Shown here: piece by piece, positions 30,501-64,000 of the stretch
Layout: each line of letters begins with the position of its first letter
How positions within the stretch are numbered: the stretch's first letter is position 1
Assembly (NCBI GenBank): GCA_030407005.1
Contig: JAUDYN010000006.1
Coordinates: 1-64,000 of the forward strand
DNA: 64,000 nt
Reading direction: 5' to 3'
Origin: Desarmillaria ectypa
Taxonomy: Eukaryota > Basidiomycota > Agaricomycetes > Agaricales > Physalacriaceae
Program-made: the position numbers and the translations under genes
Notes under the pieces: model-generated
The model's database searches: none
Told to the model about the DNA's origin: nothing
The model's input: the letters and a program-made list of their open reading frames with translations, nothing else

Positions 30501-30516
30501 CGTTGATAATGAGCTG

Positions 30517-34980: not shown

Positions 34981-36775
34981 TTATGGCAGCATCATTACAC
35001 CGTCAGCCCTGTTGTCAGAGCCCCATCAAGTTGGATTTATCATGGACTATCGGTCGTGAAGACAGAGATCCCGATGAGGGGAATATCGTTGACGATCATG
35101 CCTCGAAGGACGAAATTAACCATACCGTAGATGGGAAGAGCACGCATGCCACATTGCACCTCCCAGCATCGAAACTATGCTAGACCTTATGTTGGTGGAT
35201 CTCCACCGATCAAGAACCAGGAGTTAGTCTCCATAATATCGCCTTCAGCCTTCCCGTTTAGTCTCGGGTGTAGTGATTAGGTTTGATACGAGACAGTTAC
35301 CGGGGCCATACCTCCCTTATCAGAAGACCATCGTCGATTGCATTGTATGGGTCCCCTAGCAAACCTGAGGCACGAAATGATGCGTCTAGAATAAATACAA
35401 GGCCATCCCGACCCTGGAACAAGGAAAATTTCGGAAGGATCATGAACATGAGGTCGTATGTAATTTCGCTGTATAGATATGTCGGAGATGGTGTAGTGTT
35501 CATAAGAATTACATTGTATCAACGGACCGAAATAAAGTTAGCGACGGCAGATGAAAAAACGAATTCTCTTTAGCAGGTAGACTGGTGGAGATGATATATC
35601 TGTGGAATGTGGGAGTTAACATAAAGCAAAATGAGGGAAGAAATCCGTCGTTTGATTGAATTTTGAGGGTAGGTTGTGAAGTTGTTCCAGAATATACTAA
35701 AAAGATAGGGAAACGCGTTTGCATGTGATTACGGTGCGCATGCTTCGCTGAGACACGTTGCATTTCCAAGGGAAACACGCATTATATTCGTCAAGGCTCA
35801 AGCATTCACTATGCAGAGAATTAGTTCAAGAATATCCCGTGTTCTTTACGCGTTAGGTAGGCCATGCTGGAGCCTCGCATGAAGGTTGAGACAAGATCAA
35901 GAAATAAATTAAATATTAGAGCATCGACATTTGAGCGGCAAACACGTAATGAAATAGCCATTTCGCGTAGGGTCCCAGAACAAGGCTGATACGGATAGAG
36001 GGAATGGATGATCATTGGTTCTGGTATCGATGAGAAAGTCGGGAGCAGTAGGAATTGGCGTCGGGGTACGGGGTGTATTTGGACTACCACCCCGAAAGAT
36101 CCGAGTACAGCCAGAATTCAGGTCCAGTAGGGAAAGGTTAGGGCGAACATAACGAACCCTGATGGTGAAATTGGAATGCGGGGTTGGCTTCGGGGATGGG
36201 GTCGTGGGTTGCGGAACAATTGACATCCACGTCATATGTTTTTTTAAAAAAAATAAAAATAAAACAAGGCTCATCGAGTCTATGCTGGCGACGAGAGCAC
36301 TGCCGTTACAGTGTTGCAGCACACCGCGGACCTGTGCTCTGCTGACACGTCCAAAGCATCTATGTAGAAGCAAGATAACGGAGTAAGCGTGACTCGTAGG
36401 GCTCAAAGACGTAAGAATTCTTCAATACTCACAGACGAGCGAGAGGGCTTTCTACGATTCAAGCTAGAGCTGTACTCTGGCGGGATTAGTACTACCTCTA
36501 GAAGAGAGTGCACACTAGACGTCGCCGCAAACCCGCATACTGCGGCGATTAACAACAGGCAGTACGGAGATCTAAACGTAACCTTGAGTAGTTGCCCCAT
36601 ATCTGGAAGTTACAAGGAGAAATCAACACGCCTATGCTATCGTTGACAATGAACGTGTCTGCACTGCCTCCGGAAGAACGAATGGTGGAATCATGTGAGT
36701 GGCAGGCTAATTATTAGTGTCCGGCACGCTCCGACACTAATAGCATTCACCTCGATAGTGTAGACTTGGATGACG

Positions 36776-36844
36776 CCACCGCCGCCATCACCGCCCAGAT
36801 GTCGTCGAACGCCCTGCCGAATATGGAACAGCTGCTTCTACGAG
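36776..36844 (+). pseudogene. Exon-like segment of copy A
   Basis: Begins after a TAG acceptor near 36760 and ends at a GTGAG donor at 36845. It reads DDATAAITAQMSSNALPNME in the frame set by the preceding segment. Copy C has the matching stretch at about 60.42-60.37 with CGTCGAACGCCC in common; copy B has deleted it. Confidence 0.5.
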
Positions 36845-37169
36845 GTGAGAACAATAGGATCCCATAAATGCGAGGTGCGAGGAAGACCGAAGGCGCTGAT
36901 GGAGAGCGGATATCAACCTCGCGCACGCGGGATCGTCACATCATAAACACGCTGCTGAAAAGAGTATGTTCAAACAGTTGACGCTTCGAGTAAGGACTGC
37001 CGCTTACTACCCACTGGGAGGCGGAGGTGTGTTCAATGGGACCACGTTCCAGGAAATTCGAGCAGAATGCTGGCAACCATTTTAGAATCCTTCCGCGATT
37101 GATACACTGTCGAGTCATACAAACAATCCGGGCCTTCCGGAAGGGGGATAAGACCCTGACTGACGATAC

Positions 37170-37372
37170 AGCGGAATAAATTCACCGCTGAAGATCATTG
37201 TGGCGAGGTAGAAATAAGTCCAGGCGTGCTTGTTGATCGTGGCACGGCAGAATCTAGACTCGAGACGCGTCATAACACCCGAGCGACGCTACATGTGTTT
37301 TCGACCGGCAGAAGACGTACTTGTCTCCGAATGTGGGCAAATGAGTCTGATGATCAGCTAGAAGTAAGTCTT
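37170..37372 (+). pseudogene. Exon-like segment of copy A (GVLVDRG / MWANE)
   Basis: An open run with FTAEDHCGEVEISPGVLVDR, then RTCLRMWANESDDQLE at a possible GTAAGT donor. Copy C (minus, about 60.05-59.90) reads FTLEEFGGEGKI and SGARHTRFRM at the same places. The nucleotide core CGACG-TACA-GTGT is present in A, B and C, which suggests a once-constrained coding exon. Confidence 0.55.
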
Positions 37373-39632
37373 CATCAAATTGACATGCGACTTACGGAGA
37401 AAGAGTGATTGAAAAGGACACCTATAATTACTTTTGATTGCAGGAGCACGATCCATAATGTTGGAGCCTTGACGACCAGAAGATCATTGGGGCACCAAAT
37501 TCCAGGAAGGAGAGGTGATACTGTGAAAAATATGACGCATTGTCAATCAAAATCCATCGTATGGTACATAACATATTCTCACCTCGACTAACCTGGCTTC
37601 TAAACACGGGACGCTTTCTGAGTGGTTCTGAGTCATTTTCAGTGACGTGGGAGGAGAAAACAAGAGACGCATATTACGACATTCCGTGTGATGTCCCTGA
37701 CTCTGCCCAGTGATCTCGCCCAATATGGCATGTCAGAACAATGCATCTTCCAGCGTCGATGCTTGACTTTATACTTGTTATTTGAGTAAGGGATATTCGC
37801 ATTCTACGTATCAATGTATTCTCCAATGGAATGTAATTATGCAATGTATTGGTGTGCCTTCAAGTCTGTTTCAAGTGTATTCCGATTTCGTGAGACGATT
37901 GTTCCTGCAGAAGCAGGGAGACTTGCATCAGAGGTTATTATTACAGACGGCGGAATACGGGCTATCGTGGCATCGGTAAGCTTAACTATAGGGAGGAAAA
38001 CGATTGCAAGGCGGTAACGAGCAGGTCGGACTGCTCCAATAGTACCTTAGCATAACTGATCATTCAGTCCTAAGGCTCGGCCACTGATATTTTGACGGAG
38101 GATAATTTGAGTCTTCCTCAGGAAGATGATATGTATCGGTCATATAATTTCTCACGGACCCACTGAGTCAAACTGCTTGTATTGGTCAAATTGTCTGCGG
38201 GACGAAGCGAAGTGCTGTACATCCATCAGCTGAAGATCTGTTCTCATGGATACGTCTACTATTCCTTTCTTGCGAGGCCTTTTCCTGCGGTCTATAATTT
38301 TGTCATCCCCCTGGTGGTGCCTTATTAGAGGTCGAATGTATCCATGTAAATTCAGTGATCGCCCTTCACACATGCAAGTGGTGCAGGGCAGTACATTGTC
38401 CGCCTAGAGAGGAAATTGCTGCCCAGATATATCAGCTCGATATGTATCATCGAGCTCGCGTAACACATCAAACGTTGAGAAGGGTGATCGCGTCGATACG
38501 ACTGCCGCACCAGGTTCACTTTGTAGTTGCCTTGTTCGGTGCGATGACTAGCTCGCGGTCGCAGGTCTGACGCGTCGAACACTGCCTATGCATGATAAAG
38601 TGTCGTTCGACGCTCCCAGATTATTTTCCCTGCGTGTTTTTTTAGAACTTTACACGAGGCACCATCATGATATTGCCATGCGAGGCATGCCGATGCCTCC
38701 GTTCATTGTCCGCCCATCGAGGATAAGCTTTGGTCATCTTGATTCTGGATTAGCGTGTGCTTGAAGCTTCTCGTGAGTTCTATTGAGGAATACAGCACAT
38801 TACTCCAAAGGTTCCCTGTCGGCGCGACTCCATGCGAGTCAATGGCCGGTAGTCCGACATACACTATTCCCTAAAGGTGACTTCGTGACCTAATTACTGC
38901 AGATTTCGTTTTCTAACGTCCGAGTACCAGATTTTAAATGGGTCGCCAAGAGCTAGTGCACGGACAGTCTAGGAGCTTTATCATGCGTAAGCGAGGCTGA
39001 AAGACGGAAGGCTCGAATTGCATAGTATGCGTGTGACTTGGCCTCTATGCCAGATATCAGTCTAATTTTTTGGGGGGGATCCGTAATATTTTTCTCTTCA
39101 GAGACCAGAGCCGATGGCCAGATTTTTCATGTCGCTCATGTAAAGCTGTGAGGCCTCAGTGCTTCAAACTGCATCGCTATGACTTGGTGAATTGATATGT
39201 GCGCAGCATCCCACCGGACCCTTGCCTGTTTTTCAGGGTTTGGCTTACGGTCACTCGGGTTCGCTCTCGGGCATCTTCAGCTTGTTGAGGTCGATTCGAA
39301 AGGACTTGGTCCTTCCAACCACGCTCCCTCTCAATCGTTGGGTTTCTACTGTACGATTGCTGAGGGCTATGTGTAGTTCGCCGTTTCGTTCCTTTCCTCC
39401 TGCAAAGAGATGCCTCATTGGCTCCTTCGCCACGTCGTTTAAGGGGGTTGCTGCATCGCTACGACTTTGAAGATACACTTTCATCGTTCGACGTGTTTTC
39501 TACGCAGAGGCTTCAAAGCAAAGACGGCCATCAAGTGTAGACGTCAAAACTCGCCTCGTTACTGCGGCTCGCTTCCAAGCCAAAAGTCTATCAAGAAGTA
39601 ACGCATTGTCTCCATGACGTATGACGGTGAGG

Positions 39633-39698
39633 TGAGTGTTCTCTTCTCTTCTTTCATTTGTATGTTTTATTGTTGACTGACAGCAATGGATTGTAGGA
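39633..39698 (+). other. Conserved intron-like segment inside copy A
   Basis: GTGAGTGTTCTCTTCTCTTC opens a 66-bp segment ending TGGATTGTAG. Copy C has the equivalent (GTGAGTGTCTCTTCTCTTCT ... CAGTAG) in inverted orientation near 56860-56795. Donor, pyrimidine-rich body and acceptor are all kept, marking both copies as derived from a spliced gene. Confidence 0.6.
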
Positions 39699-39959
39699 GC
39701 GGCCTTCCCTGTCAGGAAGCCGATCAGGTTCGAGCCTCAGCCTCTTTCCCCGGTTGAGTCGTCCCAAGAATTAAACACTAGGACGTCGTCAAGGCGAAAG
39801 TAGTGCGTTTTATCATGATCGAGGGACTCTGCATCTTGAAGTCAATCAGTTGCTGCCGATTTCCAGCCTCCAGTAAGCCATCGTCTCTTTCTGTGATATG
39901 TGTGATCCGAAGATTCGTTGGTCTGCGATACGCACTTTGTGTCAGGATGCTCCGTCAAA

Positions 39960-41710: not shown

Positions 41711-43036
41711 ATGGCAGGTACGCGTCCACCCCTCCCACGACGACGAGCACTAACCCAACCCTATAGACCCCACGCAATGGACCCTCGAATCGCCTCCCTT
41801 TGACAGTATCTCCCAAGTGCGGTTCTCACCTACGAACCCGGAGCATCTGCTGGTATCTTCTTGGGACACGGTAAGTAGCGCCTGCCTACGCGTCGGAGGT
41901 CCTCGGCTGATGGGGCGTAGACTGCGCGGTTCTACGATACGGGCGATACGGATAAGCCGAACGAGCAGAAAGCAAAGTTTGACCACCGGGCGGCGGTACT
42001 GAGCTGTTGTTGGTCGGATGGTGCGAACGCGTATAGCGGGGGGCTGGATTGCACGGTTAGACAGTGCGTGTGTTCGTCTTGGGTCGGGTATATATATACG
42101 CGTATTGACTCTTCCCACCAGCCTAGGCCTCGATACGGAAAAGACGACCCCGGTAGGCGCGCACGACGATTCGATATCGTCCATGGTGTGGTCCGCGGAT
42201 AAGAACGCGCTGATCACGGGTTCCTGGGACCGTACGCTGCGGTTCTGGGATCCCCGTACGGGCGGGGACGGGGGCGCACAGCAGTCGAGCGCCGTGATGC
42301 CGGAGAGGGTGTACCACGTCGATATAGTGGGTCATGTGCTCGTGTTGGCGATGGCGAGCCGCCTGGTTCGGATATACGATACGCGGAGCATGGGGACGCC
42401 TCTGCAGGAGAGGGAGAGCAGTTTGAAGTATTTGACGAGGTCGTTGGCGTGTATGGCGAATGGGGAAGGTGGGTTTGGTTTGGGTTGGTTTGGTTTGTTT
42501 TTTGCTGACTTGGGGTTAGGGTATGCGATGGCTTCGACGGAGGGGAGGATAGCGGTGGAGTATTTCAATGCGTCGCAGGAAGTGCAGGCGAACAAGTACG
42601 CGTTCAAGTGTCATAGGCAGACGATTGATGGGGTGGATCATGTTTGGCCTGTGAACGCGCTAGCTTTTCATCCTACGTGTGTCCTCACTTCTCCATTCCT
42701 TTCCAATCTTCATTCCCTTCCCTTGGTAGGTACAACATGTTCGCTTCGGCAGGTTCGGACGGTATCGTTTCCATCTGGGACCCCAAAGCGAAGAAACGGC
42801 TGAGGCAGCTGAACAAGTTCAATAATCCCGTGTCGAGCGTTGCGTTTAGTTGTGATGGGAGTAGGATGGCGATTGCGAGTTCGTATACGTGGGACGATGG
42901 TGAGGCGGGGGCGAAGACGGCGGAGAGGCCGGCGGTGACAGTGAAGAGGTTGGGGGATGATATCAAGGTGTGTTATGCCTTATTTTTGCGCGTTTCGTGG
43001 CTGACGGTTCGTTTGTTGCAGCCGAAACAGGCGTAG
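41711..43036 (+). CDS. BUB3: Spindle assembly checkpoint protein Bub3 (WD40 propeller)
   Basis: Seven exons (41711-41717, 41767-41870, 41921-42063, 42122-42468, 42520-42676, 42730-42967, 43022-43036) join in frame to 336 residues, the usual Bub3 length. WD40 repeats are visible from the start (VRFSPTNPEHLLVSSWDT, VWSADKNALITGSWDRTLRF, HVDIVGHVLVLAMASRLVRI). Family hallmarks are YDTRSMGTPLQERESSLKY, MASTEGRIAVEYF and the late repeat FASAGSDGIVSIWDPKAKKR. Bub3 binds phosphorylated Knl1 MELT motifs at kinetochores and recruits Bub1 and Mad3/BubR1; the close relative Rae1 lacks the EGRxAVEY signature. The first exon is only 7 bp (ATGGCAG), chosen because it supplies the right phase and gives MADPTQW. 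Confidence 0.93.
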
Positions 43037-44012: not shown

Positions 44013-45280
44013 TCAAAGCCCGAACCCGTGACCAGCACCACCATCGAAATCAAAAGCGTACGCACCCGGATAGTCTTCAACGACAACACCATGAAACTTT
44101 GGCAAGCCGAGGTCTATCGGAGGGATAGCGTTCATGTCAAAGTCGTCTGAAGCGAACGACGCGGTGCTATCCTGAGAAGACTCGCCCCACCACGAGGTGT
44201 TGGTATCGCCAAAGAGGTGCAAAGACAGGTCGAGCTCTGCCTGTGCTTGTGAGAGCGACGACGATGGGGGCATACCGTATGCGGGGAGGCTCGCGGGCGT
44301 GAACGGGCCGGAGCGTGGGGACGAGCAGATGGAGGACGGAGGCGAGGTGACGATCTGTGCTGGTGGGAGAAGCTCGTTCGAGTTGGAGTTGTTCACGCTC
44401 AGTCCGTACTCTGGGGGCTGAAAACGTGACGTCAGTATTTCGTATGTCATCCACTGCTGGGGGGAAGCTCACCTGGATGTACGTCGTCGGGTGGAAATCA
44501 AACGAGAATTCAGAGGACCGCCTGCTGGCACTGATCATGGGGAGCAGGGAGGGCGATGTCGGGCATGAGGGCGCTGACATGTACACGTTAGGGATCTGGA
44601 TGGCCTGGTACGGGCTCGGGGCGGACGACGAGCGTCCGTGCTTCGGTGTCGGGATCACGAACGACATGTACTCTGAATCCACGCTCTCCCGCCTCCCCCC
44701 CCCCTGTTTCTTCCCCTTCTTCGTGCGCTGAGGCCGGTACACGTAGTTCGGGTACATCTGCTCGTGCTCCTTTTTCTTCTCCTTGGCGAGCTGTTCCCAG
44801 TACTGCCGCTCCTCCGCGCTGAGGCCCTTCCACTGCTGGGAGATCGTCTTGGAGAGGTCCGCCTGGCGCTGTTTCTTGGTCGTCTGGGGGGACCCTTCTT
44901 GTCGGTCTTCGCAGCATTTCCGGCGGAAGAGGATGAACGCGTTCTCGGGCCGTTTGATGTAGTCTTCGTCGCCTTTTTTGGGACAGCGGGTGGTGCTGGG
45001 GCTGGGGCTGGTGGAGGCGGGGGAGAGGGTACGATAGGAACTTGGGGGGGTGCTAGGGGCGCCGAGTTCAAAGGGCGAGTTGGAGGGCGAGGAGTAAGGA
45101 CTGTCAGTCAGGTTGTGGCTTGTAGGGAACGTGAAGGCGCGCGGTGTCGGCGAGATGATGGCGAGAGTCGGTGGTTCAGGCGCGTCCGTTGTCACTTCGA
45201 GTGCTAAAGTCAGTGAGTTAGATACTTGTTTTTTTTTTTAACGCGAAACTGAATATTGTACTTGCATCGGGATGGAGCAT
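44013..45280 (-). CDS. HMG-box transcription factor (MATA/Ste11-like)
   Basis: Three exons (45280-45262, 45203-44473, 44417-44013) join in frame to 384 residues beginning MLHPDATLEV. A Ser/Pro/Thr-rich N-terminus precedes one sequence-specific HMG box at about residues 89-161. That box starts YIKRPENAFILFRRKC and continues with LSKTISQQWKGLSAEERQYW, LAKEKKKEHEQMYPNY and VYRPQR. The box is of the SOX/MATA type that binds minor-groove ACAAAG-like sites. The C-terminal half is low-complexity with an acidic region near the end (DYPGAYAFDFDGG), a likely activation domain. Basidiomycete relatives act in mating, pheromone response or development; which one cannot be told here. A TATA box lies 157 bases upstream of the ATG. 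Confidence 0.9.
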
Positions 45281-45436
45281 CGCGTGTGCGAAGAGCGGGC
45301 ATTATCGATGTTGGTGAGGAAGGAAGAGAGAGAGAGAAATGATAATACCCTATAGGTGTCGCCAGGGAAGTGGAAGAGGGTTGCCAGGTTTTTTGTCTCG
45401 CGGGGCACAATTGAAAAGACAATTAAGAGCCCTCTG

Positions 45437-45443
45437 TTTTATA
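45437..45443 (-). promoter_or_regulatory. TATA box of the HMG-box gene
   Basis: TATAAAA on the minus strand, 157 bases before the ATG at 45280. It leaves room for a 5' UTR of about 125 bases. Confidence 0.45.
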
Positions 45444-46150: not shown

Positions 46151-46567
46151 TGGCTTAGTGCCAGAGGAACAATGCCTATCCATTGTTACGCGCTACTAGA
46201 TCGACCATCCATCCGTAGACACCCGCTCGAGAAACGTTATACGAGAAGTGGAAGTTCATCTCATTAAAAAATTATATGTCAGACAAGAATCGAGATGGAA
46301 CTTGCTTAAAAAGGGCGGACAATGGGTCGGTTGGTGGTGGTGTATTGGGGGTTGCCTCGTGTGACGGGAACAGAAGAAGAAGAGTGTCAAGTCCCGTTTG
46401 ACGCGTCGGTCCCGCGCCTGCGCGTCCTAGTCATCGGGCTTAAAGAGGCATGGCGCGCGAATATATCATCAGTTACCCATCGCGCAATAAAGTTACGGGG
46501 CGCGGGTTTCCTCTCTCGGAGGACAATGTACTTTTCAATCAAGGGTTTATATATATTGCGTGAGTAA

Positions 46568-46578
46568 GGGGGGGGGGA
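46568..46578. repeat. G11 run in copy B
   Basis: An eleven-G run, one of several long homopolymers in copy B (also C10 at 47318-47327, T11 at 47460-47470, T11 at 48284-48294) that have no counterpart at the aligned places of copies A and C. Confidence 0.8.
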
Positions 46579-46642
46579 TGGGAACTATGTGTAAAGCGCC
46601 CGACGCAGGCAGGCAGGTAATATCACCCAGAGAGGAATCTTG

Positions 46643-46662
46643 ACTCGGTCGGTCGGTCGGTA
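46643..46662. repeat. GGTC tetranucleotide microsatellite
   Basis: ACTCGGTCGGTCGGTCGGTA: four tandem CGGT units. Copy C has only one or two at the aligned position (about 59096), so the expansion is specific to copy B. Confidence 0.75.
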
Positions 46663-49600
46663 CGTGAGAAACGCGTGCGGACCCGCTACGTCACGCGGAG
46701 ACGGAAACAATTCCCGGACAGGTTCTTAAATTTTCCTCTCTTTTGCAAGTGGCATTAGACATTGTTCTAGAATATCCCTCGTAGAAAGTCGGGAAGGAGG
46801 GGGCAGTATAGGCTTTTGTTCTCTAAAAGTCGCGAGAGGAGCGCGTCCCGAGCAAGTCTGGACATTTTCCTGACGTGAGAGCCACGCGCGCGCATTTGAT
46901 GGTGAACGTCGGTCAGGCGTCGGGCACATGTTGGCTTGATCGTGATGATAGATAGCCCCGCCGTCTTTCTGCATCACCCCTCAAGCTTCACCGCGAAATA
47001 AGTTCCCCCGACGTCGCGTCAACCGCCCAAAACATTTTTGTGTGTGTTTAGGCGGACCAGAAAAGAGTCTCTCTCTCTTTTTTGTTTTTCTTCTTCTTTA
47101 CCGGGCTTGGGTAACTTTCATTTCACCATGCAAAATCAAATACACTTACGGGAACTCGAGGGAGGGAAGATGCGTTGCTTCTGACATTCCATATTGGGAT
47201 CATGATCGGCGAGCTGGCGCTCAGGGTCGTCACTTTTGCTTGTAACCAAGACCCTCCTCTCTCTCGCTCGCAATTTTTCCACACATGCATGATGGAGGAG
47301 GAGTAGAGTAGTTCTCTCCCCCCCCCCTCTTTCGTTCCACGTGTGATGGATATAAAGAATCTCCCAAGCGAGATTTTTCTGAATCCGAGTCCGGGGTGGG
47401 ACCCATGCAATAATGGCAGTATAGTTTCCGGATGATCGCACTGATGCCTAAACGGGGACTTTTTTTTTTTCCTTTTTTTGGCGCTGGTTGATACACGTGT
47501 GTCGTCGTTCGGGAGCTCCCCAGTCGATAATTAACTGGGTTCTTCTTATCTCTGCGCCGCCACCTCCTTCTCCTTGTCACGTCTATTTCCTATCACCTCT
47601 TCAACGTCGTTCCTGTATGTATCTCAAAGCGAATCCCTATTCCGTGCATGCCAAAAAAAGAAAAAAAAATTTCTTTGGCTTCATGGCGCCATTGTTTCCT
47701 CTCACGGACACGGACGGTGGCGGGAGATAAGCCGCAGACTTACTTCACCCTCTTTCAACATGCTATATCCAGTAACGTGTTTATGATTCGCTCCACTGCC
47801 CGCCTGCAAGGCGGATATGTCCGCTCAACGTTGCAGCTTGCCGGCATTACGTCGGTTCTTGGTGGTGGAATTTACAAACATTTCTCCTAACGGCATCGCG
47901 GGCGACTCACATGACCGAACGCGTTGAACCTTGGGTGGGGGGCGTGGGTGAGTCTTCTTCCCGCCTCTCTGTGTGGCCTCGCTCGACCCTTGCAATGAGG
48001 CTGTGCTTCGAGAGGCAGGACATCGTGCATCGTGTCCGACTCTCGAGTCATACGAGGGTCTTTGGGGGGCTTTTACGTCGATTCGGGATAGTTCGCCCCC
48101 CCCTTCTAGATAATGAGGCGGATCACTCAAGTCCGCGGCACTTGACAACGGCTGGCATGACGAATACGAGTATTGACGTCATCCCTTGGTTTCGGGGCTT
48201 ATTATCTTATCATCTTTCTGCCATCCCCGATGAGCTTTTACCCCGCATTACATCATTATTGTTCGCCGTAGGCTCGCCTCGTATTTTTTTTTTTGCCTGC
48301 AGGAGCTGAAATTAATTCATAGTACTCGGATCTTGTGGACGGTCAGTCCTAATAGACGGGGATGGGATGATATCCTACCTCAGTCCCCGCTGAACGACGT
48401 TTGTATCGTATGACGTTCATTCTACCATGTTTAATATTAATTCCGTAACATCGTTCACCTACTCCCCGTCTGGCCCGGTCTTCGCCCATATGACAAGTCC
48501 TCATACCGCCTTTGCCACTTGTACTATACGATGACATTTGACATCCACCTCTGAACGTGTAGATCCTACGGCTAATCCTCTGCGTAAGCTCCGTGCGCCG
48601 GACACCTCGAGGACAATGCTGTGCCTCTTCCCTGACACTTCCACGAGTTATCATCAAACATGCGTCACCGCCTCCCAATCACGTGTAAATGAATTTCGAT
48701 GAGTGTCCCACTCCATGTTCTTGAATAACTCTCGATATCACCGTGGAAATAAAAGTGGAACCAATAGTACGACACCTGGTGACAGTTTCCTCTTGTTCTT
48801 TACTATACAATCGCCTCTTCCATTTTCCGGCGCAGGAAAAACTCCCTTTCGATGCGAGTTCGTATTGCGAGCTTGTGCAGCCGCCAGCTGTACCTCTGCT
48901 CGTGAACCTTGTTAAAGCACCCTTCATTCTTGTGGACCTACTATCCCTGACGCGGAGTGTATACGACGGATCTTGACTCATCCCTCCCGCGTGTTATTCT
49001 GTCTTCTCTGTCTGAAAATGCGATGTCTAGATTGCCTACCGCGCCTCAGGATCAGCAATGCCGGACCTTGACAAGGAAGAAATCAACCATATCCTTCTGA
49101 TAGGGGCAGTTGTGGTATCTGTCCCATGTCGTTGCCGAATCAAACCTAATCACCACACCTCAGACCAAAGAGGAAGGTTCAACACGATAACGCGGAGACT
49201 TTTTCCGTTCCCGATCTTGACACGAGTTGGAGATAAGCCCTAATTAGTAATAGGTATGACACGCGTACTCGATTCTCGACTCACCGCCGCCGCCGTGTAT
49301 GTTGTCTGCCAAGTCAGGAGACTCTTCAGCTGTCTTTGTACTCCTGGATCCTCTGTCCCTTCCAGCCTGATGTTCCGAATTTTCCTATCAAGGTTCTTTT
49401 CTCAAGTCTCGTGACAATGAGCTGGCATTGCGACGGTGGCGCTGACGTTGCTTTGTGTTTCCATGATACACGCGTCCTTCATATTAACAGTGTGTACTGA
49501 GAGCGCCTCTTCTACGTGAGTCATTCCCCCCTCTGCAGCGTAGTATTCCCACTGACATCCATCTAGAACGAGGCAAGGGCTCGACGTTTGGGATTTTCCA

Positions 49601-50899
49601 GCCGTGATTCTTCTCACTGCGGACCATGTTTCCAGCATATAGGTTCTGCATCGTGCAAGTCGGTGATAGAATTATTGGGTGTCATCTCTTCGCCGGTGGA
49701 TCGCTGTAGCTGAAGATAGTTCATCCTATTTCAAGTTACAAACCGTCAACAGCTTAGAATCCCGGGTCCACGTCGACCTTGTATGTGTCCTGCATCTCAG
49801 TCTATCTCGCTGTGTTCACGATTTTCAGGTAGAGGCGATTTATCAAGCTGTCTGGACTCTCCATAAGGACCACATCATCTCCCGGCCAATCTTGCCCTCA
49901 ACTGTTGCGATTCGTACACTCATTGGCCCTACCCCGTCCACCGCAGACCTCAGTCTCTTCACTGTTAGCCGTACCAGAGGGCCGACGCCCACTATTAATC
50001 ACCATCTGTTTTACATGACTCGTGGAGAGCAAGGAAGAATCGGTTTAACTTTTTCCCATATTAATTGTCGAGTGCGGGAAAAAAGACTAGACGCGGCACA
50101 GGGCACTCGAAGACTGAACCAGGGTATCTTGACGGTAGACTGGGACCTAAACTCCATCCGGATTTCGGATCGTCGATGTCGAAGTGGACAAATCCCCTTA
50201 TCAAATGAATAATCTGATAGCCTAGAGTCTCTGGCGCTTTCTCATCCAACCTCTTCTAGTTCACTGATGAACCAGCGACTCCGATGTTCGGTTCTCATAT
50301 CAGATGAACGAGGGGTGGGTAGAAGATCGCGAGTGGCTATTATTGCGCGAATGGACCGTTGTGTGGGCGTCAGGGCGTAACGAGTTCCATGGAATCTCTT
50401 AATGATAAGGTGAGAAGCATGGTTCTGGATGTTGTCATTTGACCTGATTTCGCAAAGACAGTGAAGGCTTGAATGGAAGAAAGATTGATATTATTTCCCG
50501 AACGGGTTAGACGTTGGAGCCATCAGCTAACGCTACCTATCGAACCCTGTTCGTGTCCTCGTTGACTGAGCTCTGTTGTATTCTGATTTTGGCTTGCGCT
50601 GTCAGTGATGCTCAATCTGTCGTGTTCGGGCTGCATATCTCGTCTAAAAAATTATCATCGTACCCCCATAACTAGGCAACACCTTCATCAGACTTCTTCC
50701 AGTTGGTACATCAGCTGTACGCCTTCCGTAACACGTGTGTCTTGTTCTGAACGAGCTATATGAAAGCCGCGTAAGGTTGTGATTACTACTAACAGGTAAG
50801 ATCCAAATACCATATGATTCCAAGTTCTTTTCTTCAGCTCCGTGACCATGCGTTCAAAAATACTCTTTTCGCCATTCAATTCTGGGGTAGCCGCTAATT

Positions 50900-53800
50900 T
50901 CATGGTGTCACTTCTAGCCGGGCCCCAAACATCCTTTGATTGCTCATTCTAACTATTTTGTCTCACCTGGAAACTGTGGGTTCAGGGCAGGGAGTGCGGA
51001 ACCCGACTAGAAACACGCCCTCGGGCACGACGTCCCCGACTTGTCCGACTCTCCTCACCGGCGGTATCACATATTGGAATTAGGAAAACAGCGGTGACGG
51101 GGCTTTGACAGCCGCATTTCACATTCAACTTTATGAAAAAGGGTCTTGGACCGAAGCCTTCACTAGTTCGAGTCCCCCTCTGATCATCTCTGATGTTGAT
51201 TAAATGATTTGTATACATACGAACTCATTATTACCGTCCTCAGCGCGCATTAGGTACACAATACAACGAAAAAGCGGAGATCAGATAGCAGGGCCAATGT
51301 CGTGTGAACTTTATTTCCTTCGAGGCCTCGATGAAATATCATAGCCGCCGGTCCCTTCTCTCTTCACATCATCACCGGAACTAAAATGAATCGGAAGTGA
51401 AATATATTTTCTACTTTGAACTATTAAGGCAGCCGTTGCTTTGTTGGATAACTGGCTACTGGCGAATCAAATCGCCAAGGTTTGGGGGAAATATAAATTT
51501 CAGTGAATAACGCATTCATCAGAGCATGAATGTCTCACTTCAACATTATCCTTCTCCGCCGGCGGCCCCGTTCTGTCAGGATACTTCAACGTTGCCTGAA
51601 GGAGCTTGAAACTTGCGTTGCCCTCCTGCCTTCCGTTCCTTCTTCTGATAAAGAAGAATTACCCACCTGAAATCCAGAAAGAAGAATTTCTAAACTTTAA
51701 GCCGACAGACATCATATTTTGTTTTCTGCGATATCATCCGCGGGCTTAGCTGTCACGTTGCCATCAAAGTGTGATGTCAGTTCATTATATCGATGGACCT
51801 CCCGGTAGGTAGACCCTCGCATTACGGTGGATCTATCAGAACATTCTAAGAACCGAACAGCTGCTCTTCGGCTTCAAGTAAAACCCCAATCCTGCCAGAA
51901 CATGCTTATGTGACAAAGGTACTTACCCCACATGGACGTGAGAGCCTCGTGCTATGGCATCTTGTGTCCATCAACTTCGTAGAACAAAGGAATGTCGACA
52001 GGCTGCCGTTCCTGGCTTCTACTCTCAGGACTGTCAAGGCTTTTCTTTTCTTTTGACGGACGATGTAAAATGTTGGTACTTTACGTCGATGTTGCAGGAA
52101 CGCTAGGAATATTTCAAAAGTGGCTCGGTGACCGACTCTCTGCAAGGCACAAATAATAATTGGAAACATCGATATATTCGAGACAGCAGTATTTCCATCA
52201 AAAGTGTCCAAGTTACTGTCGGACGTCGAATAGACGATACCTACTGGTATCTGCTAAGGACAGGCCATTAGCGAAAGGGGGAACTCTGGTTCCTCTGCGA
52301 TACAGGCACGCAATACTAAGGGGCCTGAAATGGCCCACAGTCAAAAATGGCTTAGTGGAACTGTGATGAACGTGCCCGGAAAGCTAACGGCCAGCCTCAG
52401 ACCTTTTAGTAGAACCCCGAGCGCCATAGGAGATCGCCACAAGGGCTCGGGTCGGAAGCCTAGAAAAATTTCAAGGTCAGTTAGGGTTCGTTAATGAAAA
52501 GACGGAGACATTAAATGCTATGCTTAATTGAGGACTCCACAGTACCGGTAAAATGTAGTGAGCGTCAGGATTTTTGACAGAAATAATAGCGAAGTCACAG
52601 ACCACCTTACTGCCTAGAACAAAAGGAGATAAACAAGAGAGGCCCGTAGCACTGTACAAAACGGCTTACTATTAATAACTGAGTTTATTGAATGTTGATA
52701 GGGAAATAATCTTCTTATGGGTAGCTCATAGGATCACACTATGTTATAGTCCACCTTCATGTGGAGGCAGGTCGAGGTTTCGTCAATTCTTTTGTACCGA
52801 GGATAGATAGGAGCACGCTGAGATGAGAATATATCAATGCTAGACAATCAACATATGAAACCGGCCTGTACCTGGCGATTTCGCACACAGGCATGTAGTC
52901 CCAAAAGAAATTGCTCTAATCTTCAACAACAAAATCGGTACAGATGTCCATGATGAAACCACAGAAACACCACATTTGCAGGGGTTGATCAGGCTGTACA
53001 ACCCGAAAGAACGGAATCGACAACGGCGTGCGGGTCCCTACGATCGGCGCCTTGTTAGTTGTACGCGACCCGAGTACCGAGCATAACACTAGAGTGGTGA
53101 TACCGATTATAATCATGGGAATATTGATTTCACACAGCAACTCCAACTCCAATCCAGCTGTCCATTCACGGGACGAGCGTCAGAGGAGGATCGATATATG
53201 GGGTTTGTTTCTAAAGAGCGCCAAACTCTTCCTGAACGAAAAAAGGAGTCGGTGGAGCAGTAGGATCCCGGGTGTATAATTCATCAGCTAAATAAGCACG
53301 CAAATTTTGGAAAAATGAGCATATCTTGTAGCCAAGAGGCGATCATCATAATGAAAGATCATCTATCTCGGGATGCATATTCCAAAACATCAGTCAGTGA
53401 CCGCAAGTTGTTGAACAAAATGGCAATCTACCGGAGCTTACACGCTGAAAAGACTGCCCAAAAGAGTTCGTCGGAAGTATGTCAAACGGGTAGCAAGGGT
53501 TTGAACACGATCAGCTCCCGCCGGGTCTTGCGCGTGTCTCAAAGACAATAGGTGCACCACGTAAAACAGGAGTTACTGTCGATGAGAAACGTGTAGCTGA
53601 CCGTGAATAGTAAGCAACGCACCGCCCACCTTTGCCTTAGTAACTTAAATACTAGGTCCTTACAGATATTGTATCTAGGGTGTCCGTCACGGCCTAGATA
53701 CATATACAGCATAGCCGGCAGGGCTGGTTTAATTATTGTAAGGACCAGCCACATATATGATACGGCGCTTTATCTATGTGTCCCGGAACAGTAGCTGCAG

Positions 53801-56540
53801 CACTAGGAAGGCGTATGGACCGGAGAAATGTCAATTCTGTTGACCCGATGGAGTGGAAGGAACAATCGATGTCGGCAGGTAATGAGGTTTTACCACGTTA
53901 TAAGGCAGAATTTCGCGTGTTTGTAGTGACGGCCTTACCAAGGAGATTGGTAGCAGCAAATCGTTAACGTCGTATCATTTCGCTGAATACACGGGTGAAG
54001 GCGAGTGGGAAAAAAAGTTACCGTACAGCCACACCTAGTGCACCAAGCGGTGCTCCGGGAGTCTGATGAGCCGAGTTTCTTGTTTTCTTGATTATACCTT
54101 TGTAAAGACAGGCTGCTACTATCCACAGACACAGACATTTCTTTGTATATGTACGGTGTCTGCTCTGCCAGCATCATCGATCCAAAATGTTGTTTGCCGA
54201 AGACAGAATGAACTTACAAGTGAATCTGATCTTTAAGTGATCTAAAGCTATGCTTTACTAGTTCAGCCACTGGCAGCACATACATACAGACACTCGGATG
54301 TAGAAAGCTGCCTAAATCTATCGACTATTTGCTCTTTTTTCCCCTCAAAATTGTATATAATCCGATCTCGAACCGCGCTCTTAGGAGGATGTTCCAAAGA
54401 ATGATCAATCAGTCGACTTCTGATCTTTGGCTCAAACTCGGCTCGCTAACTATCTCTCGGAGTCGATGGGTAATTTCTGTTACTGGTGGAATAAATATCT
54501 CATGGGTTGTCCTTCTTTCCCATATGCTTAGCACCCTTCATTCTCATCAGGTTCTTGCACTACCACGGATACCAAGGTAGCCCGACTCTGAGAACCAAGC
54601 TTCTTCTGATTGTTCTAGAGATCCACCATGTGTCGAATCTGCGTCCACTAGGCTATCTACATGGGGAATTAAGATTCATGACATAGAGGTTTGAGCAATG
54701 TTACTCAGAAACACTATTATCAAGTTTCAACAACATACTCTGAATTCTGATCACTTTGGCGGCCTCAAAATGATTAATAAAAGGTCACGTTTAACGACTA
54801 TGAGAGAATGCATTACTCCCGCATATTCTTCCATAAATTCTTACTTCTCTCCCCCAAGTACTACTGTGCTGCCTACCCCCAACGGTGTCGCGGGGCCATC
54901 TATTCGATTTCTGATCATTCCACAGATCCACTCTGCATCTTATCTGGGAACAGACAGCATCTTTGTATGCATTCCACGTCGCTTGTGCAACATTTTCGGA
55001 GACACATACCAACGAGACAAATATAGGGAGTTCCAGATTACGAGACCAATCATCCCACAAATGCACATGCATCCAAACCAATATCATGATAACCGAGCAC
55101 CAGTCCGTTCTGTGCGGCTACTCGTACGCTGCTTTCCGGTGTTAGTTCGGTTCCCATTCATTTCATAAATCATGATACCAACGCTCGGTCCCGAACTCAA
55201 ATACAAGATATCAGAAACTAAGCATACCCTTTTCCTCTTTCTGATCGTCCTGCTTGCCTCACAAAAATCGACTAAAGTCTTTCTTTGGCTCGCAGTCACT
55301 AGCCGACAGAAAACGCCATCAGCCATGAAGATCGCCCTCTGATGCTCAGCCGAACGACAACGTGAACATTCAGAGAGTCACCGGCACACGCGAAGTTCAC
55401 AGAAAAGCAATGGGTACCTCGCGGAGATGCTCTCATAGGTATATTTCCATCTGATGAAGCCTGCGGATATAGTGGGTAGTAGATAGGTAGTATTCCACGG
55501 CACGGTGCACCAGACCAACATCCAAAAGTAGTGACGGCATATGGCTGTGCAGCGGCTCAGGTCGGCATCCTATCGGCAAATCCTCAAGCAGGCGAAAAAA
55601 AGAAAAGAAAAAGCAAAGCAATACATGAATGATTGGGCGCACGGGTCTACGCAAACTATTCTATCTCGTGAAGCGCACAAGAGCGCCCAATCTTTAAGAT
55701 TTCTGATTGTCCGGCCATAATTGATGGACGCCACATCGCTGCAAAGTGACCGGACGTGTCGACGGAAGAGGTCGAGACCAAGCTAACTACGCAAAACATT
55801 AAATGATGGATAGAGATTGACAGAATCTGTGAAGATATCCTTATCAGCAAGGAGACAATAAGATAAGACACAGGTTCTCCAGGAAGCAAGATAAGCGCCC
55901 ATGACGTCATAAGTTGACTTGTGGGTCCACAGGTACCGCTTCATCTTCCCCGCACTGATGGAACATCGGAGACAACAAAGCGTGTTGTGATAGCAACACC
56001 ACAGCCTTAGCATAATACTACGCATAGGGCACCTGTCACTCTGACCATAGCGACGAAACAAATACGTCGCAACTCCGTCAAGGGAACGTTACTACAGCAA
56101 CAAGTATCAATCCTCTGCGTATCTAAAAAAAGAAAGACGAAAAACGTTCACACAGCACCGAGGGATATTACTAGCAGGGTTGATAACCATATTTATATAG
56201 CCCTGAAGTGACGGACGTCCGTAATAATCAGCAGCTATTAAGAGCACTTTGAAGGCGTCCAAAAATTCCATACTGAAATCACACAGGGGCGAGAAGCCCG
56301 GCGTTGTGACATTGAAGTGTACTGTGGAGGTCAAGGCTGGGTGAATATCAATGAGCTTCCTATTAGAAAATACTATCAATCGCTGAGCGAGCGAGAATGT
56401 CCTAGGAATTGACGCCCCCTGTGAAAACCGAAGTACAGCCGTAATGATAAAATGGGGGGTATAGCAAATCGGCGACCTGGAAGAACATCTTCTGAAAACA
56501 TCATTCAGTCACTGCATATCGCAGAAGGAGACGACGACTT
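50900..56540. other. 5.6 kb between copies B and C, no confident gene
   Basis: Many short frames on both strands, none with a domain I can defend. Minus 53152-52916 encodes a hydrophobic start (INIPMIIIGITTLVLCSVLG). Minus 56379-56107 and 56061-55656 look mildly protein-like (EFLDAFKVLLIAADYYG) and could belong to a decayed gene adjoining copy C. Parts may be older repeat copies too diverged to align by eye. Confidence 0.3.
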
Positions 56541-59163
56541 ACTGGAGACTGGCCAACCAGAACGGGCATTCATAGGCAGCAACTGATTCACTAGCAAGAA
56601 GACCCGAACTTGAGTGGCTCCACGTTCAAACGCCATGGATTCGGTCAATCAAGGAAGAGGTATCACTTTCGCCTTGACAACCTATTGTGTACAAATATGG
56701 GTCCATCAAGGCGCTTAATTATTGGACGACTCAACCGGGGAAAGAGCCTGAGGTTCGGTCCTGATCGGCTTCGCACTTCCCTGACAGGGAAGGGCGCTAC
56801 TGTAGTGGTCGGTCAACAATAGAACATACAAATAAAAGAAGAGAAGAGACACTCACTGAGAAGCAGGCCATCGAGAGCAGTTGATCCAGGAACTGGCAGA
56901 CGTCACGGAGACAAAGTGATACTTGCTCCTTGACTTCAGACTTGCGACGAGGGGAGTTTTAATGTCGACATCCGATGGCGGCTGTCGCTTTGTAGCCTCT
57001 GCATATAAACGAACGACAGCGACGTATCTTCGAAATGATAGTGGACCAATTCGCAGGGACTAAGAGCACAGGGGCCCCTCTTATTGGTAATAAGACCACC
57101 GATGCTACGAATAGAATTGTCAACGTTCAGATATGCATCGACTAAACATCTATGTATGTACCAACTGAGGGGTACGGGCAGCGAGGCAAGGCGGCAAAGG
57201 CATGTTCGAACTTTCTGAGCATGCAAAACCAAATTCTTCACACTACGGGGCCTGTTTTTGCAATACAGCCTTAGTCACAGGAAAGGAATGAAATAGCGAG
57301 ACTGTACCTACCATTGGTAATCGTACAGTGGATATCGATTGTCATCCAACGATTGAGAGCGAGCGTGGTTGGAAAGGCCAGTCCCTTTTAAGTCGACAAT
57401 AAACAAGCTAAAGACCCCCGAGGGCAAATCCGAATGACCTTAAGCCAAACCAGGAAAACGGAAATCAGTGACCGAAGGACGAAAGACGAAAGGTACGGTA
57501 GGATGCCGCGCACATATCAATTCACTAAGCCACATTAACGTTTGAGGCATTGCGGTCTTACAGTTGCACGAGAGCGACGTGAGAGATCCGGCCATAGGCT
57601 CCATTCTCTGAAGAGAAAATTTTTTATGGATGAAGTTTATTCCCTCCCACCAAAATTAGACTGACATCCGCAGAGAGACAGACTGTCGGGCCTTCAGAGT
57701 GACATGGCCAGCCGTCTTTCATCACTGGTTACACATAATGAAGATAGTCCAAGGTCACTCGTGTAGCTCTTGCCGACTCATTTAGAATCTGGTACTCGAA
57801 CGTTAGAAAACGAAGTCTGCGGAAATTACGTTACGCACCATGGTCTACCCCGAGATCTTATACTTTTCCGATAGCCTCAAGCGGTGCACGCATGGACGCC
57901 AAACGGCTTTAGCTTCCCACACAAGAAAGAGCTGATGGCTCCAGCCATTGTTGACCTAGCTATGAAAACAGCAAATTGTCAGATCCAACAAAAAGGTCGG
58001 GTCCTATGCGTGCTTACAAAGCTTGATTTTATACATTAAGGAGCTTTTATAACAATATATTTCTAATGCGTGAAGAAGAGGGTGGCCTGCAGACGCCGTG
58101 CGTTGTTGGATATGGTCATGGTTGGATACAGTCAGTACAGCTGGCGGTCCGAAGTCGGCTCTTCGCAGCCGATGACAAATTCTAGCACAGCCACTCTCCC
58201 ACCCAGAAACGTCCATTATGCCGTTCGATGTAGTGATCCAACCGCGTGTTCTTACGCGTCTTATATTGAACAATGTGGGAATCTTTGTATTCACTACCTT
58301 TTTAAACTGCATTGACTCCACGAACAGCCTCAGTCTTACCTCAACCGTTCAGCGACGCGGTCCCAATCGCACTGACAGGTAACTTATTCAGTAAAGCGCT
58401 ATAGCCGTAAGCTTTCCCCAGTAGAAGTTACCAAACCCCTCACGCGCATGCAAAGCCAGAATCAAGATGATCAGCAACTTGTCCTCAATGGGCGGACAAT
58501 GGACGGAAGTATTGGTATGCCTATCATGGTGGTATCATGGTGCCTCGTATAAAACTTTGAAAATACGTAGGATAAAAATATGGGAGCGTCGAACGACACT
58601 ATCATGCATAGGCACTGTTAGATGCGTCGGACCCGCGACCGCGAGCTAATCATCGCACCTAACAAGGCAACCACAACGTGAACCTGAGGCGCCAGCTGTA
58701 CGTATTGAAGTGATCACCCTCCCTAACATTCGATGTGTTTCATGACCTAAATAATACAAACAGCCCATGTCGAGATGTAACTACGTAGCTGTTTTCTCAC
58801 TAGGCGGACAATGTCCTAACCCATATAAATTTGCTGCTTGCATGTGTGAGGGACGATCACCGAATTTACCTGGACTCAAGGTGGGCCTCTGATAAGGCAC
58901 CACAAACGAGTTGAAAAAATTATCGGCTATAAGGAGAGGCGGGATTTAATGTTTCTTCCTCTCTGGAATGCAACAGTAGGTGGTCAATCCTTTCCAGCGG
59001 ACGTATCCATGGTAAATCTTCAGCTGATGCAAGTGTAGCATTTCAGGGAAATTCGCTTCGTTCCGCTGATAATTTGACCAATGCGAGCAATCTGACTCGG
59101 TCGGTATGCGAGAAATCATGCCAACGGTGCATGTTATCTTCCTAAAGAAGGATGAAATTATTC

Positions 59164-59565
59164 CTAGCCAAAATAGTAGTGGTCGAGCATTAGGACTGAA
59201 TGATTATTTGTTCTGAGAAAGCGGCCGTTAGAACAATCATCTTCCCCCTGATGGTCAAATGTTGCGGTAGCCCATATTCCGCCGTCTATATTAACAACCA
59301 CTGATGCGATGTCTCCGTGCCTCCGCAGAAACAATTCTCCCGTAAAATAATACTCTCGAAACAAAATTAGAGAAAAACTCAATCCATAACCTCTGGATTC
59401 ATACTGTATAATGTACACGTACATGGCACTGAAAGATCCCGCACCCAAACACCAGGCATAAGGAAAGCCATTGAGTCCCATGCTGGAATGGAAGATGCAT
59501 TGTCCTGACATGCCATATTCAGCGAGATCACCGGGTAGAATCAGGGTCATCACGCGGAATGTCAT
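59164..59565 (-). pseudogene. Longest surviving frame of the repeat family
   Basis: A 133-codon uninterrupted frame inside copy C. It reads DLAEYGMSGQCIF, then FPYAWCLGAGSFSAMYVYII and GDIASVVVNIDGGIWATATF. The aligned stretch of copy A (37.67-37.99) keeps the nucleotide sequence and the DGGI motif but shifts frame between the two parts. No known domain is evident. It is probably one exon plus neighbouring intron rather than a whole gene. Confidence 0.45.
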
Positions 59566-62500
59566 AACACGCGTCTCCGGTTGTTTCCTCCCACGTATCT
59601 ACAGAGTGACTCAGAACGCACTCTGTTTTTGGAAGCCGGTGGGACAAGGTGAGAATATGTTATCTCAACCATATGGCAAATTTTGATTGACACCGCGTCA
59701 TATTCTTCACAGTATCACCTCTAATTCCTGGAATTTGGTGCACCAATGATCGTCTCGGTCGTCAAGGCTCCGAGGTTATGGACCGTACTCCTGCAATCAA
59801 AAGTAATAATAACGATATGGCTTTTTTAGTTGCTCTTCCTCCGACAATCGCGTGTCAAATCGATGAAGAAATATATTGAGTCTGCTCACATACGGAAACG
59901 AGTATGTCTTGCGCCGGACGATACACGTGTACCGTCGCTCGGGGTCTTTAACGTATGATGCGTCTTGAGTCTGGATTGGCCACCATCAATACGTCCCCTT
60001 ATCTTTCCCTCGCCACCAAATTCTTCGAGGGTGAATAAGTTGGTTCGCGCTATATATTCATCCCCATTCAACATTTCCGTTTGCCGGTTCCTGTGCATCT
60101 GTATTCTTACTCTGAATGTTCCACGATACGTATGACTCGACGGTGCACTAACATTCAGAAATAGTTATCAACATTCGAATTTTGAGAACGTGGCGTCATT
60201 GAGCACATCCCCATCCTCCCCGTGGATAGTAAGCGGCTTAATCTTCTCTATGCTTCAACTCTTTGAACATACCATTTTCAGCAACGTGTTTGTAGTATTG
60301 TGACGATCCCGTTCCCATATGTCCGCTCAACGCCAATGCCAACAATGACCCAGACTTATGGTTTGCTAGTACCATTGTTCTCCACACCTAGAAGTCTCTC
60401 CTTCGGCGGGGCGTTCGACGACCGACGCCACGATGGCTATAGATGCGCCTTTAAGGAGATCCAAATTCGCCATTTACGGCATTGCGGACTATCGGGTCAT
60501 GTCAGGCACTGTTGAATAGGCCGTCGCTCACATGACTCAGTCGGCACCCTTTCTTCTCATTTGGTTAGCGTGGAGAACAGAGGCAGTATGACGTTTAGGA
60601 TTTCCGTACCACTTTCGTTATGGGGCTCCTCGCCATTTACGGCCGCAGTATACGGGTTTGTGGCGACGTCTGGCATGTATGTGCTTCTAGTGTAGTCCCC
60701 CTGTCTGACCCAAATCGTGACTCGAGTCATAGGAAGTTGTTCATAGAAAGTCATTTCGCTGGTAGTAAGTAGCAGAAGCTTTTACGTATTTTGACGAGTC
60801 CCGGGTCATGCTGACTACGTTACCCTTACTTCTAGATAATTGGGACGGATCACCGTAGCACAAGTCCGCGGCACGCCATGATGATGACTCGGAAACTCCA
60901 GTCGTTAGCATTAATGCAAACAATCACATCAGCTGTTCAGCCGCCTACTGGTATCTTATTTACAACAGTTCCCGATCCTAGCCCGCTTTACAATGCCACC
61001 ATCAAGGTTCAAGGCTTTATTGAGTCAAGCATTTTCCTCCAGAGCCTGATTTTGATTCTAGTGGCACTCGGGTCTTTCAGGGGTGTAGTCGAAATTATGC
61101 CCTGAGTAGTTAGCCCTAATAGTCCGACGGCAAGTCATGCTAATTCGGGTTCTCTCATACCAGGGCTAGGACAGTCATCCAGTCTGCATCCGCTCTACTT
61201 GCTCGTACGTCTGCCTTTACCGTATGATTTGATTTCATCCTTTCCGCTCATACACATTCTAATAGTCGAAAAAACCCTCGACTTTCATATCAAGTCTCAA
61301 CGTACTCCTCAAGAACGTGTACAGAACTCCAGATATTCTGAGACTGATTCTCAGACTTCATGTTGCGGACACTTATATGAGCCTCGAAAGATATATTGTA
61401 TACCTTCCTTGGAAATTCGGTGTTTGTTATGATACATGCGGCATGAATCACATGCGAGGTGAGCTTCTTCATAGTCTTGTTTATTTATCTTCCGGAACGT
61501 CTTGAGAAACCACCCTCAAAATGGAGTCTGAATGAAAGATGCCCTGCAAATGATTTTCTCTTCTTTGCATCTTAAATAAATCTACCCCCTTCTTTCCTAC
61601 GGACGTCATCTCCACCATCTATTTGGGGATGAAGCCATACTCTAGCCTGCCGCCGCTAAGTACGCTCGGGCTCGACGCTACAAAGAATATTATGGGCTTT
61701 TCCTATCTCTGATACATCAACACACCGCATAAGATGATCGTTCCGAAATCGTCCCTAGCTTCGCGATGTGCAATGCGTTTACTCTAGGCGCATCATTTCG
61801 TGCCTCAGGCTCACCAAAGGACCCACACATGAGACCGATGATGACCCGCTAATAAGGGAGGTATGACCCAGGTAAGCGTCTCGTATCAAACTTAATCACC
61901 ACGCCCTAGACTAAATAGGAAAGTTGAAGACAGTAGCATGGAGACTACTTACTGGGTCTCGATCGAAGGAGATAACCCAGTAAACGCCTAACGGAGAGGT
62001 ACCTCACGCCAACACGAGTACCGTAATATCTGTCCCCGAGGCCTCGTCGGATTTACGTTCTTTACAGCCGATAGTTCGAATGCTCCTTTCAGGGAGTCGG
62101 AATTAAGGTCGACTTTGGCCGTAAGGCATATGATTTCTGTAAGAACTCTTAGCCATGTCATTTCTTGATCTCTGTTTACCTACGCCTTCAGACTGCCTAT
62201 GTATGCGCCGTTTCTGGCTTTTTCTTTACATTACCTATGATTTCTACAGTGCTTCTGCGTCTCTGCTCTGGCAATATATACAGATCCGTACTCAGTTCTC
62301 GGGTTGAAGACCCCCTCGCGTAACAGATCCTTTACATTGGCGGATGTAATGTTGCCATAACCCATGCGTAGTCGATCTGGACCTCTCTCCCGTGTAAGCT
62401 GTTTTCTGTACGAATTGAAATTTATTTGATGTCAATCTGACTATTCTCATCAGCGTCGAAGTCTAACTTCACACCCACTCAACTTAACTCGCGGTAGTCG

Positions 62501-62646
62501 TTTATCGTACCACGGAAACCATCTAGTACAAGATCCTGCCAGCGAAGGATGCACTAACTGATTCAACAGACTTGCGACATCACGAGCAGTTCTCTTACCT
62601 CGATGTATAGAGAGGGTTACTTCATGTGCCCGGTCCTAATTACTAC

Positions 62647-62940
62647 GAGGATTACCTATGAGCCTGTACGTTATCCCTTTCCTTTTAAGCATACTACCTT
62701 CATTGAACCTAGTCTAGCTTGTTCCTTTCATTGACATCAGTCGTTACGCCGGTCCTGAACCCAGTTGCACTACTCGTCCGTATCTCTCATCATCGGTGAC
62801 TCTCAGCATTCATTACTATAAAGATAATTTATGAGCCTTTACGTTCTTCTTTCCTTTCAATTATTCATTGAAGCCAGACGTTGCGTAGGATCTGAACTGA
62901 GATCAGACCAGTTGCAGCCCCCTCGTCCACAATTCTCGAC
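62647..62940. repeat. Imperfect tandem duplication, about 176-bp unit
   Basis: ATTACCTATGAGCCTGTACG (62651 on) recurs as ATAATTTATGAGCCTTTACG (62824 on), both followed by a TTTCCTTT tract and TTCATTGAA. Later GTTGCACTACTCGTCC and GTTGCAGCCCCCTCGTCC also match. The unit is about 173-176 bp in two diverged copies. Confidence 0.7.
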
Positions 62941-64000
62941 TTTTGCGGTAGGACTCTTTCATATCTAGAACAGAAAACCCATCTCCGTTCAACCGATTCT
63001 GTTTTTCCAGGCCTTGCACCCGTATTCATTTTACTAGAGCCCCCATCGTAATGCTTATGCAGAACTTCGGGCATGAGCGGTGATAATATTGATCACTTGA
63101 AACCAGCCCTCCTCCAAGTTCATTTCAATGTCCGGCCAATTCATCACTTCTCGAGACGGTACGTATATCTGGGTTGATGCTCCCTGCACCCTAGGAAAAT
63201 CATCCGTCGTAATCGTTTATGGGTTCCTTACTTCGAGCTTGAACCGGGCTCACCAGTTCGGCGGTAGGCGGATGCTCGAGAGCCTGGACATTGCAGGACT
63301 GTCTTTTCTCGACATATACATGGTGCTTTAACGTCGACACTTCCAGATTAAATACGAGGTTAGCTGCAAGGTCGCAGTAACCAGCTGGAATCAGGGAATG
63401 CTTACGCCTCGCAAGGTATGCGGAGGGCTTTCAGGTCGTATGCGCCGCGTTCGGAATCACGAAATCAGCTGTCGTAGGCTGGTATATAATTGTCTGGGCA
63501 TTCCAGATCTCTCAAACCTATGTCGTGCCCGACATCCTGCCTCGGTATGTAGATTACGCAGCTGTCCACTTATGATCGATCTCCCTCGTCTTTTAATTTC
63601 CGCACTGTTCTGTCAAGGTATAGTCGAACTAGGTACTCAGTTTCTCGTAAATATTCGCGCCGCCGCTCATCTTGTCTAGATTACCATCACGATCCCAGAA
63701 TAGGGAAACAGGTCCAATAAGCTGTGCTCCTTCGTTAAGGTATGTAACACGCGTGTTTTTGTTCTGAATGGGCCGTATAAAAGCTACACAAGGTTGTGAT
63801 TACTCTCAACAGGATTGAGTCCTCGCATGACGTCAAGCGCTAGGTGTATAATTCAGTGATGAGACAGAGGGGCAATCCATCAGTTATGTGAGTTGAGTTC
63901 CGTTCTTCGATGCTCGATGAAATACGAAAGCCAAATGAGTGGAAAACCTGTCATCGCGAGGCAGGTATTTCCAAGTTGGAAACTAGCTCTGATGGAAAAA

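Follow-up and report, generated by a model that had tools for sequence, protein, structure and literature searches.

Local segmental duplication followed by decay gives rise to a few neighbouring copies, direct or inverted, which remain colinear while they diverge without constraint. DNA transposons and LTR retrotransposons likewise form kilobase-scale repeated units. Here we describe a repeat family of three copies, A, B and C, in a window comprising bases 1-64000 of contig C29 (3 766 149 bases) of the mushroom Desarmillaria ectypa (Physalacriaceae; genome of 40.6 Mb in 32 contigs). The family resembles local segmental duplication with decay, and nothing that we tested sets it apart from that process. 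It is also similar to the decayed duplicates of alpha/beta-hydrolase-like and DUF6699 genes, with which it shares a 154-kb stretch, a comparable divergence and the presence of both direct and inverted copies; unlike A/B/C, most of these gene pairs keep codon periodicity and some keep recognizable domains. In contrast to DNA transposons and LTR retrotransposons, we found only three copies, all in a 34-kb stretch, with neither convincing terminal repeats nor mobile-element domains. The three copies are probably old local (segmental) duplicates of non-coding or already dead DNA that then decayed neutrally; this is ordinary genome decay, and no new element.

A D. ectypa genome, FPL83.16, is listed in PMC10470841; narrow literature searches returned nothing on the A/B/C repeat.

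Three colinear copies in two orientations

The family is real: A (plus strand), B (minus strand) and C (minus strand) are homologous and colinear. A self-comparison aligned A with C, in inverted orientation, in four blocks: A 35199-35443 with C 61973-61734 (76% identity), A 36928-38790 with C 60311-58414 (68%), A 38884-39398 with C 57835-57279 (69%) and A 39632-39774 with C 56856-56715 (79%). Alignment extended this colinearity to the whole stretch between about 35.02/62.10 and 39.90/56.52 kb, which delimits the main part of A (35017-39901, plus strand; colinear with C 62100-56515) and of C (56515-62100, minus strand). B is far more diverged and is recognizable in parts of its length only; plain DNA comparison was weak here, with one 70-base piece matching C in the genome search. 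When A and C were combined into a profile, the best piece of B emerged at 49392-48104 on the minus strand (E = 2.4e-31), with further colinear pieces at 47830-47720, 47233-47126 and 46457-46280, the best match in 20 random sequences with the dinucleotide frequencies of B being E = 1.9. These four pieces make up the main part of B (46280-49392, minus strand). The colinear alignment of all three copies, and the inversion of A relative to B and C, had been proposed in the original prediction; the self-comparison and the profile matches bear out both.

The copies lie where that prediction placed them, but the units proved wider: their whole limits are 30.28-39.90 kb for A, 52.02-46.28 kb for B and 63.84-56.52 kb for C. 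An extra 1.3 kb is common to the outer part of A (30280-31549, plus strand) and to B 52021-50714 (E = 4.6e-14), and B 50563-50824 is homologous to the outer part of C (63573-63837, minus strand), so that the outer part of B spans 50563-52021 on the minus strand. C had been thought to continue beyond 64.0 kb, but its homology to A and B ends at about 63.84 kb, and a search of 62300-66000 against C29:1-154000 returned none past that point.

Where all three copies could be aligned (1082 columns), identity was 0.609 for A-C, 0.502 for A-B and 0.504 for B-C, and shared differences grouped A with C in 261 cases, vs. 145 and 147 for the other pairings. Since A and C have the highest identity and are grouped by most of the shared differences, the earliest split was most likely that of B. 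A first duplication would thus have set B apart from the line that a second later divided into A and C; one of these two events would have involved inversion. The copied DNA would have been non-coding or already dead, and each copy would then have decayed by point changes and indels. As a guess, the molecular cause may have been, for example, template switching between nearby segments.

Copy number and ends of the units

All three copies found fall within 34 kb of one contig. With A 36.9-39.8 kb, C 56.5-64.0 kb, 30.2-36.2 kb and B 46.2-52.1 kb as DNA queries, no A/B/C homology was detected outside the window in the rest of the 40.6-Mb genome, within the sensitivity of this search, which scores the best candidates only and would let copies as diverged as B escape. 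The other matches of these queries were a MITE-like repeat, a solo-LTR-like repeat, a patch shared with contig C28 (all described below) and two short pieces on contig C31. At the protein level, queries translated from C 56.1-60.4 kb in the three sense frames matched C itself and A only, and a profile search of C29:1-154000 yielded no fourth copy. Within the sensitivity of these searches, the copies are thus colinear, neighbouring, few and undispersed, as in local segmental duplication.

The original prediction had considered an undescribed large mobile element. Such an element, present in very few copies, would account for the presence of multiple colinear copies, each at least 5 kb long, in an area where insertions are common. 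We regard it as very unlikely, however, since the three copies found all belong to the same 34 kb, Pfam scans of the units revealed no transposase, integrase or reverse-transcriptase domain, and the ends carry no convincing terminal repeats. Specifically, when the 250 bases on both sides of every end were compared for exact 10-base matches, A and C gave none and B gave one inverted pair, in agreement with the earlier remark that no terminal repeats were apparent. Old, diverged ends could be missed by an exact search of this kind, and the unit ends are too diverged for exact placement. A/B/C show none of the transposon features tested.

Divergence without detectable protein-level constraint

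The repeat had alternatively been suggested to be a decayed, locally amplified gene family. Decay and local amplification are upheld by our data; 'gene family' found no positive support in periodicity, reading frames, domains or relatives. We determined the codon-position bias of the A-C differences over 37 ungapped blocks (2441 bases, 625 mismatches) and obtained z = -1.16 (p = 0.89). The same block-wise test on nine other duplicated pairs of C29 gave z = 31.4, 21.3, 12.6, 7.9, 6.5, 3.6, 2.6, 1.0 and 0.6. It was run first on A-C and six control pairs; the remaining three then scored 3.57, 0.98 and 0.55, the last being a pair of dead hydrolase genes without codon periodicity. Seven of the nine controls therefore keep some periodicity (z from 2.6 to 31), and two score 0.6 and 1.0. 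In a simpler test, pooled over one frame for A-C and the same nine pairs, the controls did not behave uniformly.

As the dead hydrolase pair also lacks periodicity, genes that were already dead when copied can resemble A-C, and the three later controls mean that the missing A-C periodicity says less about origin. Comparing codon-position bias with that of duplicated neighbours is nevertheless informative: it reveals the absence of constraint since duplication, not the nature of the source, and a dead-gene pair can fail the test as well. A and C diverged without detectable protein-level constraint; their source could have been a dead gene.

Other measures gave the same picture. A-C similarity in tblastx was about equal in all six frames, A-C gap lengths followed no multiple-of-three pattern (17 of 64), and the three sense frames of C contain 56, 72 and 61 stops in 1433 codons each. 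A codon-usage scan was uninformative, setting even the neighbouring WD40 gene only weakly apart from random sequence. Because the tblastx matches were about as strong in one frame as in another, DVAxNPxTAA, xVIIxDGGIxA and PQVHxVVALxGAM, previously put forward as protein motifs, are most simply explained as similar DNA viewed through a reading frame. Motifs and 'exons' that the eye picks out of similar DNA do not count as evidence of a gene. An armadillo- or leucine-rich-repeat gene, also considered, was supported by no search.

Duplication with neutral decay is favoured by the homology and order of the copies, the failure to find a further copy, the lack of codon periodicity, the gap lengths, the six-frame similarity and the stops, and also by the closer relation of A to C than of either to B and by the many other local duplicates in C29:1-154000. 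Two observations speak against it: A-C divergence is patchier than in simulations, and a splice-like intron is kept near 39632-39697 in A and C, with donor, branch-like and acceptor motifs recognized by eye. The intron would be expected of a multi-exon protein gene that was alive at duplication and died early in its copies, as would the few open stretches (e.g. the 144 codons of C 59598-59167). Neighbouring gene families took the same course, and the hydrolase pair is equally aperiodic. We still consider such a gene unlikely, given that periodicity is retained by most of the neighbouring pairs but not by A-C, and that the domain and protein searches of A and C gave no support.

Domain, protein and RNA searches

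Pfam was searched in six frames, with stops written as X, over 29.7-39.2, 39.2-40.4, 46.0-55.9 and 56.2-64.0 kb; no match above cut-off was obtained in A, B or C. The two weak matches in the units (E = 0.049 and 0.047) were to PF21509 in C and to PF20137 near the end of A, each at 14 bits, with cut-offs of 27 and 23.6 respectively; a third, also below cut-off (E = 0.27), fell in 29.7-34.7 kb. NCBIfam, queried with parts of A and C in their sense frames, gave no match, and two protein-database searches with 168 residues of C and 151 of A yielded no homologue. No recognizable intact homologue was found in these searches or with the sense frames of C in the genome.

An open frame of 139 codons (34216-34632) lies in the span of A. 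Its only Pfam match is a weak one to a bacterial family, below cut-off (E = 0.08), and it has no relative in the genome at the protein level.

Rfam returned no match at the gathering threshold, nor, in 34900-64000, at E ≤ 0.1. Likewise, 20 of 20 predicted folds (six A and four C blocks, both strands) had z between -1.49 and 1.27. These results weigh against the idea that the copies are maintained as a functional non-coding element or RNA, in favour of which one could cite the A-C blocks at 86-93% identity that adjoin poorly aligned stretches, and a mild excess of patchiness over simulations. With B recognizable only in parts of its length, we judge it extremely improbable, the least probable of the alternatives. 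Only slightly less remote is that the 86-93% blocks represent a lineage-restricted functional non-coding element, or a tiny undescribed family that amplifies only locally.

Patchiness of the A-C divergence

Neutral simulations, aligned in the same way, reproduced most of the A-C picture. In A-C, 92 of 2312 windows had ≥ 90% identity, compared with a simulated maximum of 60 of 2632 in 24 neutral runs with large indels, and the spread of identity was 0.078 vs. ≤ 0.072 in those runs; 15 simpler neutral runs fitted less well. A-C is thus slightly patchier than all 24 simulations, a margin that would accommodate gene conversion or some constraint.

Probable later insertions in the copies

Under duplication and decay, later insertions would have interrupted the copies, namely a MITE-like repeat in C and a solo-LTR-like repeat in A. 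The MITE-like dispersed repeat (62121-62337) lies in C where A has a gap; elsewhere in the genome at least 19 places match it (E ≤ 1e-5), and we aligned 14 other copies; by eye, its ends resemble the inverted pair TGTAAAGGATCTGCCA / TGGCAGATCCTTTACA. The solo-LTR-like repeat (33159-33421, minus strand) lies inside the span of A, measures about 250 bases and has TG...CA ends. It is recent and abundant: at least 39 other places match at 95-98% (best 40 of 322 candidates scored), among its further sites are C29:80918-81180 and C29:101586-101833, and 5-bp flanking duplications were present in 3 of 3 copies examined.

Around it, also inside the span of A, a patch at 32595-34091 (plus strand) is common to C28:17115-18114, at 85% and 78% identity. 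The flanking pieces are 3 bases apart on C28 and 522 bases apart in the window, the latter including the solo-LTR-like repeat. On both sides of this repeat, the bases also match a single place on C31 (2885492-2885739), and the repeat may therefore sit within an older small insertion.

Between the two parts of C, a fragment at 63125-63552 (plus strand) is related to the alpha/beta-hydrolase-like copies of C29.

Genes and duplicates surrounding the repeat

Two genes lie between A and B, outside the repeat. The HMG-box gene (44016-45237, minus strand) is annotated in D. ectypa, and its protein was 100% identical to the annotated one over 68% of the query frame. The WD40 gene (42003-43033, plus strand) had its best solved structures named mRNA export factor, which we take to be RAE1/GLE2; the structures thus pointed to this factor rather than to BUB3. 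Frames of ≥ 150 codons cover 8% of 1-34 kb, 8.5% of 34-40 kb and 8.6% of 46-64 kb, vs. 34% of an interior control.

Many other local duplicates, direct and inverted, with 65-95% identity, were present in C29:1-154000, DUF6699 genes among them. Fragments of alpha/beta-hydrolase-like genes matched six places including the query, each of them in the 0.8-121 kb interval of C29, and a hydrolase domain was detected only in the relative at 72.5 kb. Bases in local duplicates amounted to 8.5%, 12.0% and 18.7% of three 60-kb stretches of this region that overlap in part, compared with 8.0% in one interior 60-kb control; a special enrichment at the contig end, which we had considered, is therefore not clearly exceptional.

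A giant palindrome or a telomere was also considered but gained no support: the inverted pairs share no common centre, and nowhere in C29:1-154000 do two TTAGGG units stand next to each other, compared with 34 such units in the final 1000 bases of C29. The contig start, which may lie near a chromosome end or simply mark a break in the assembly, is itself duplicated: 1-391 recurs inverted at C29:72537-72157 (95%), as does 631-1482, which resembles decayed alpha/beta-hydrolase genes, at C29:73572-72712 (76%). Outside the window, C29:81762-87873 and 108103-102121 form a large inverted repeat of ∼6 kb, whose identity ranges from 69% to 95% along its length. Finally, a dispersed repeat of ∼100 bases at 10284-10379 recurs in at least 13 other places on five contigs.
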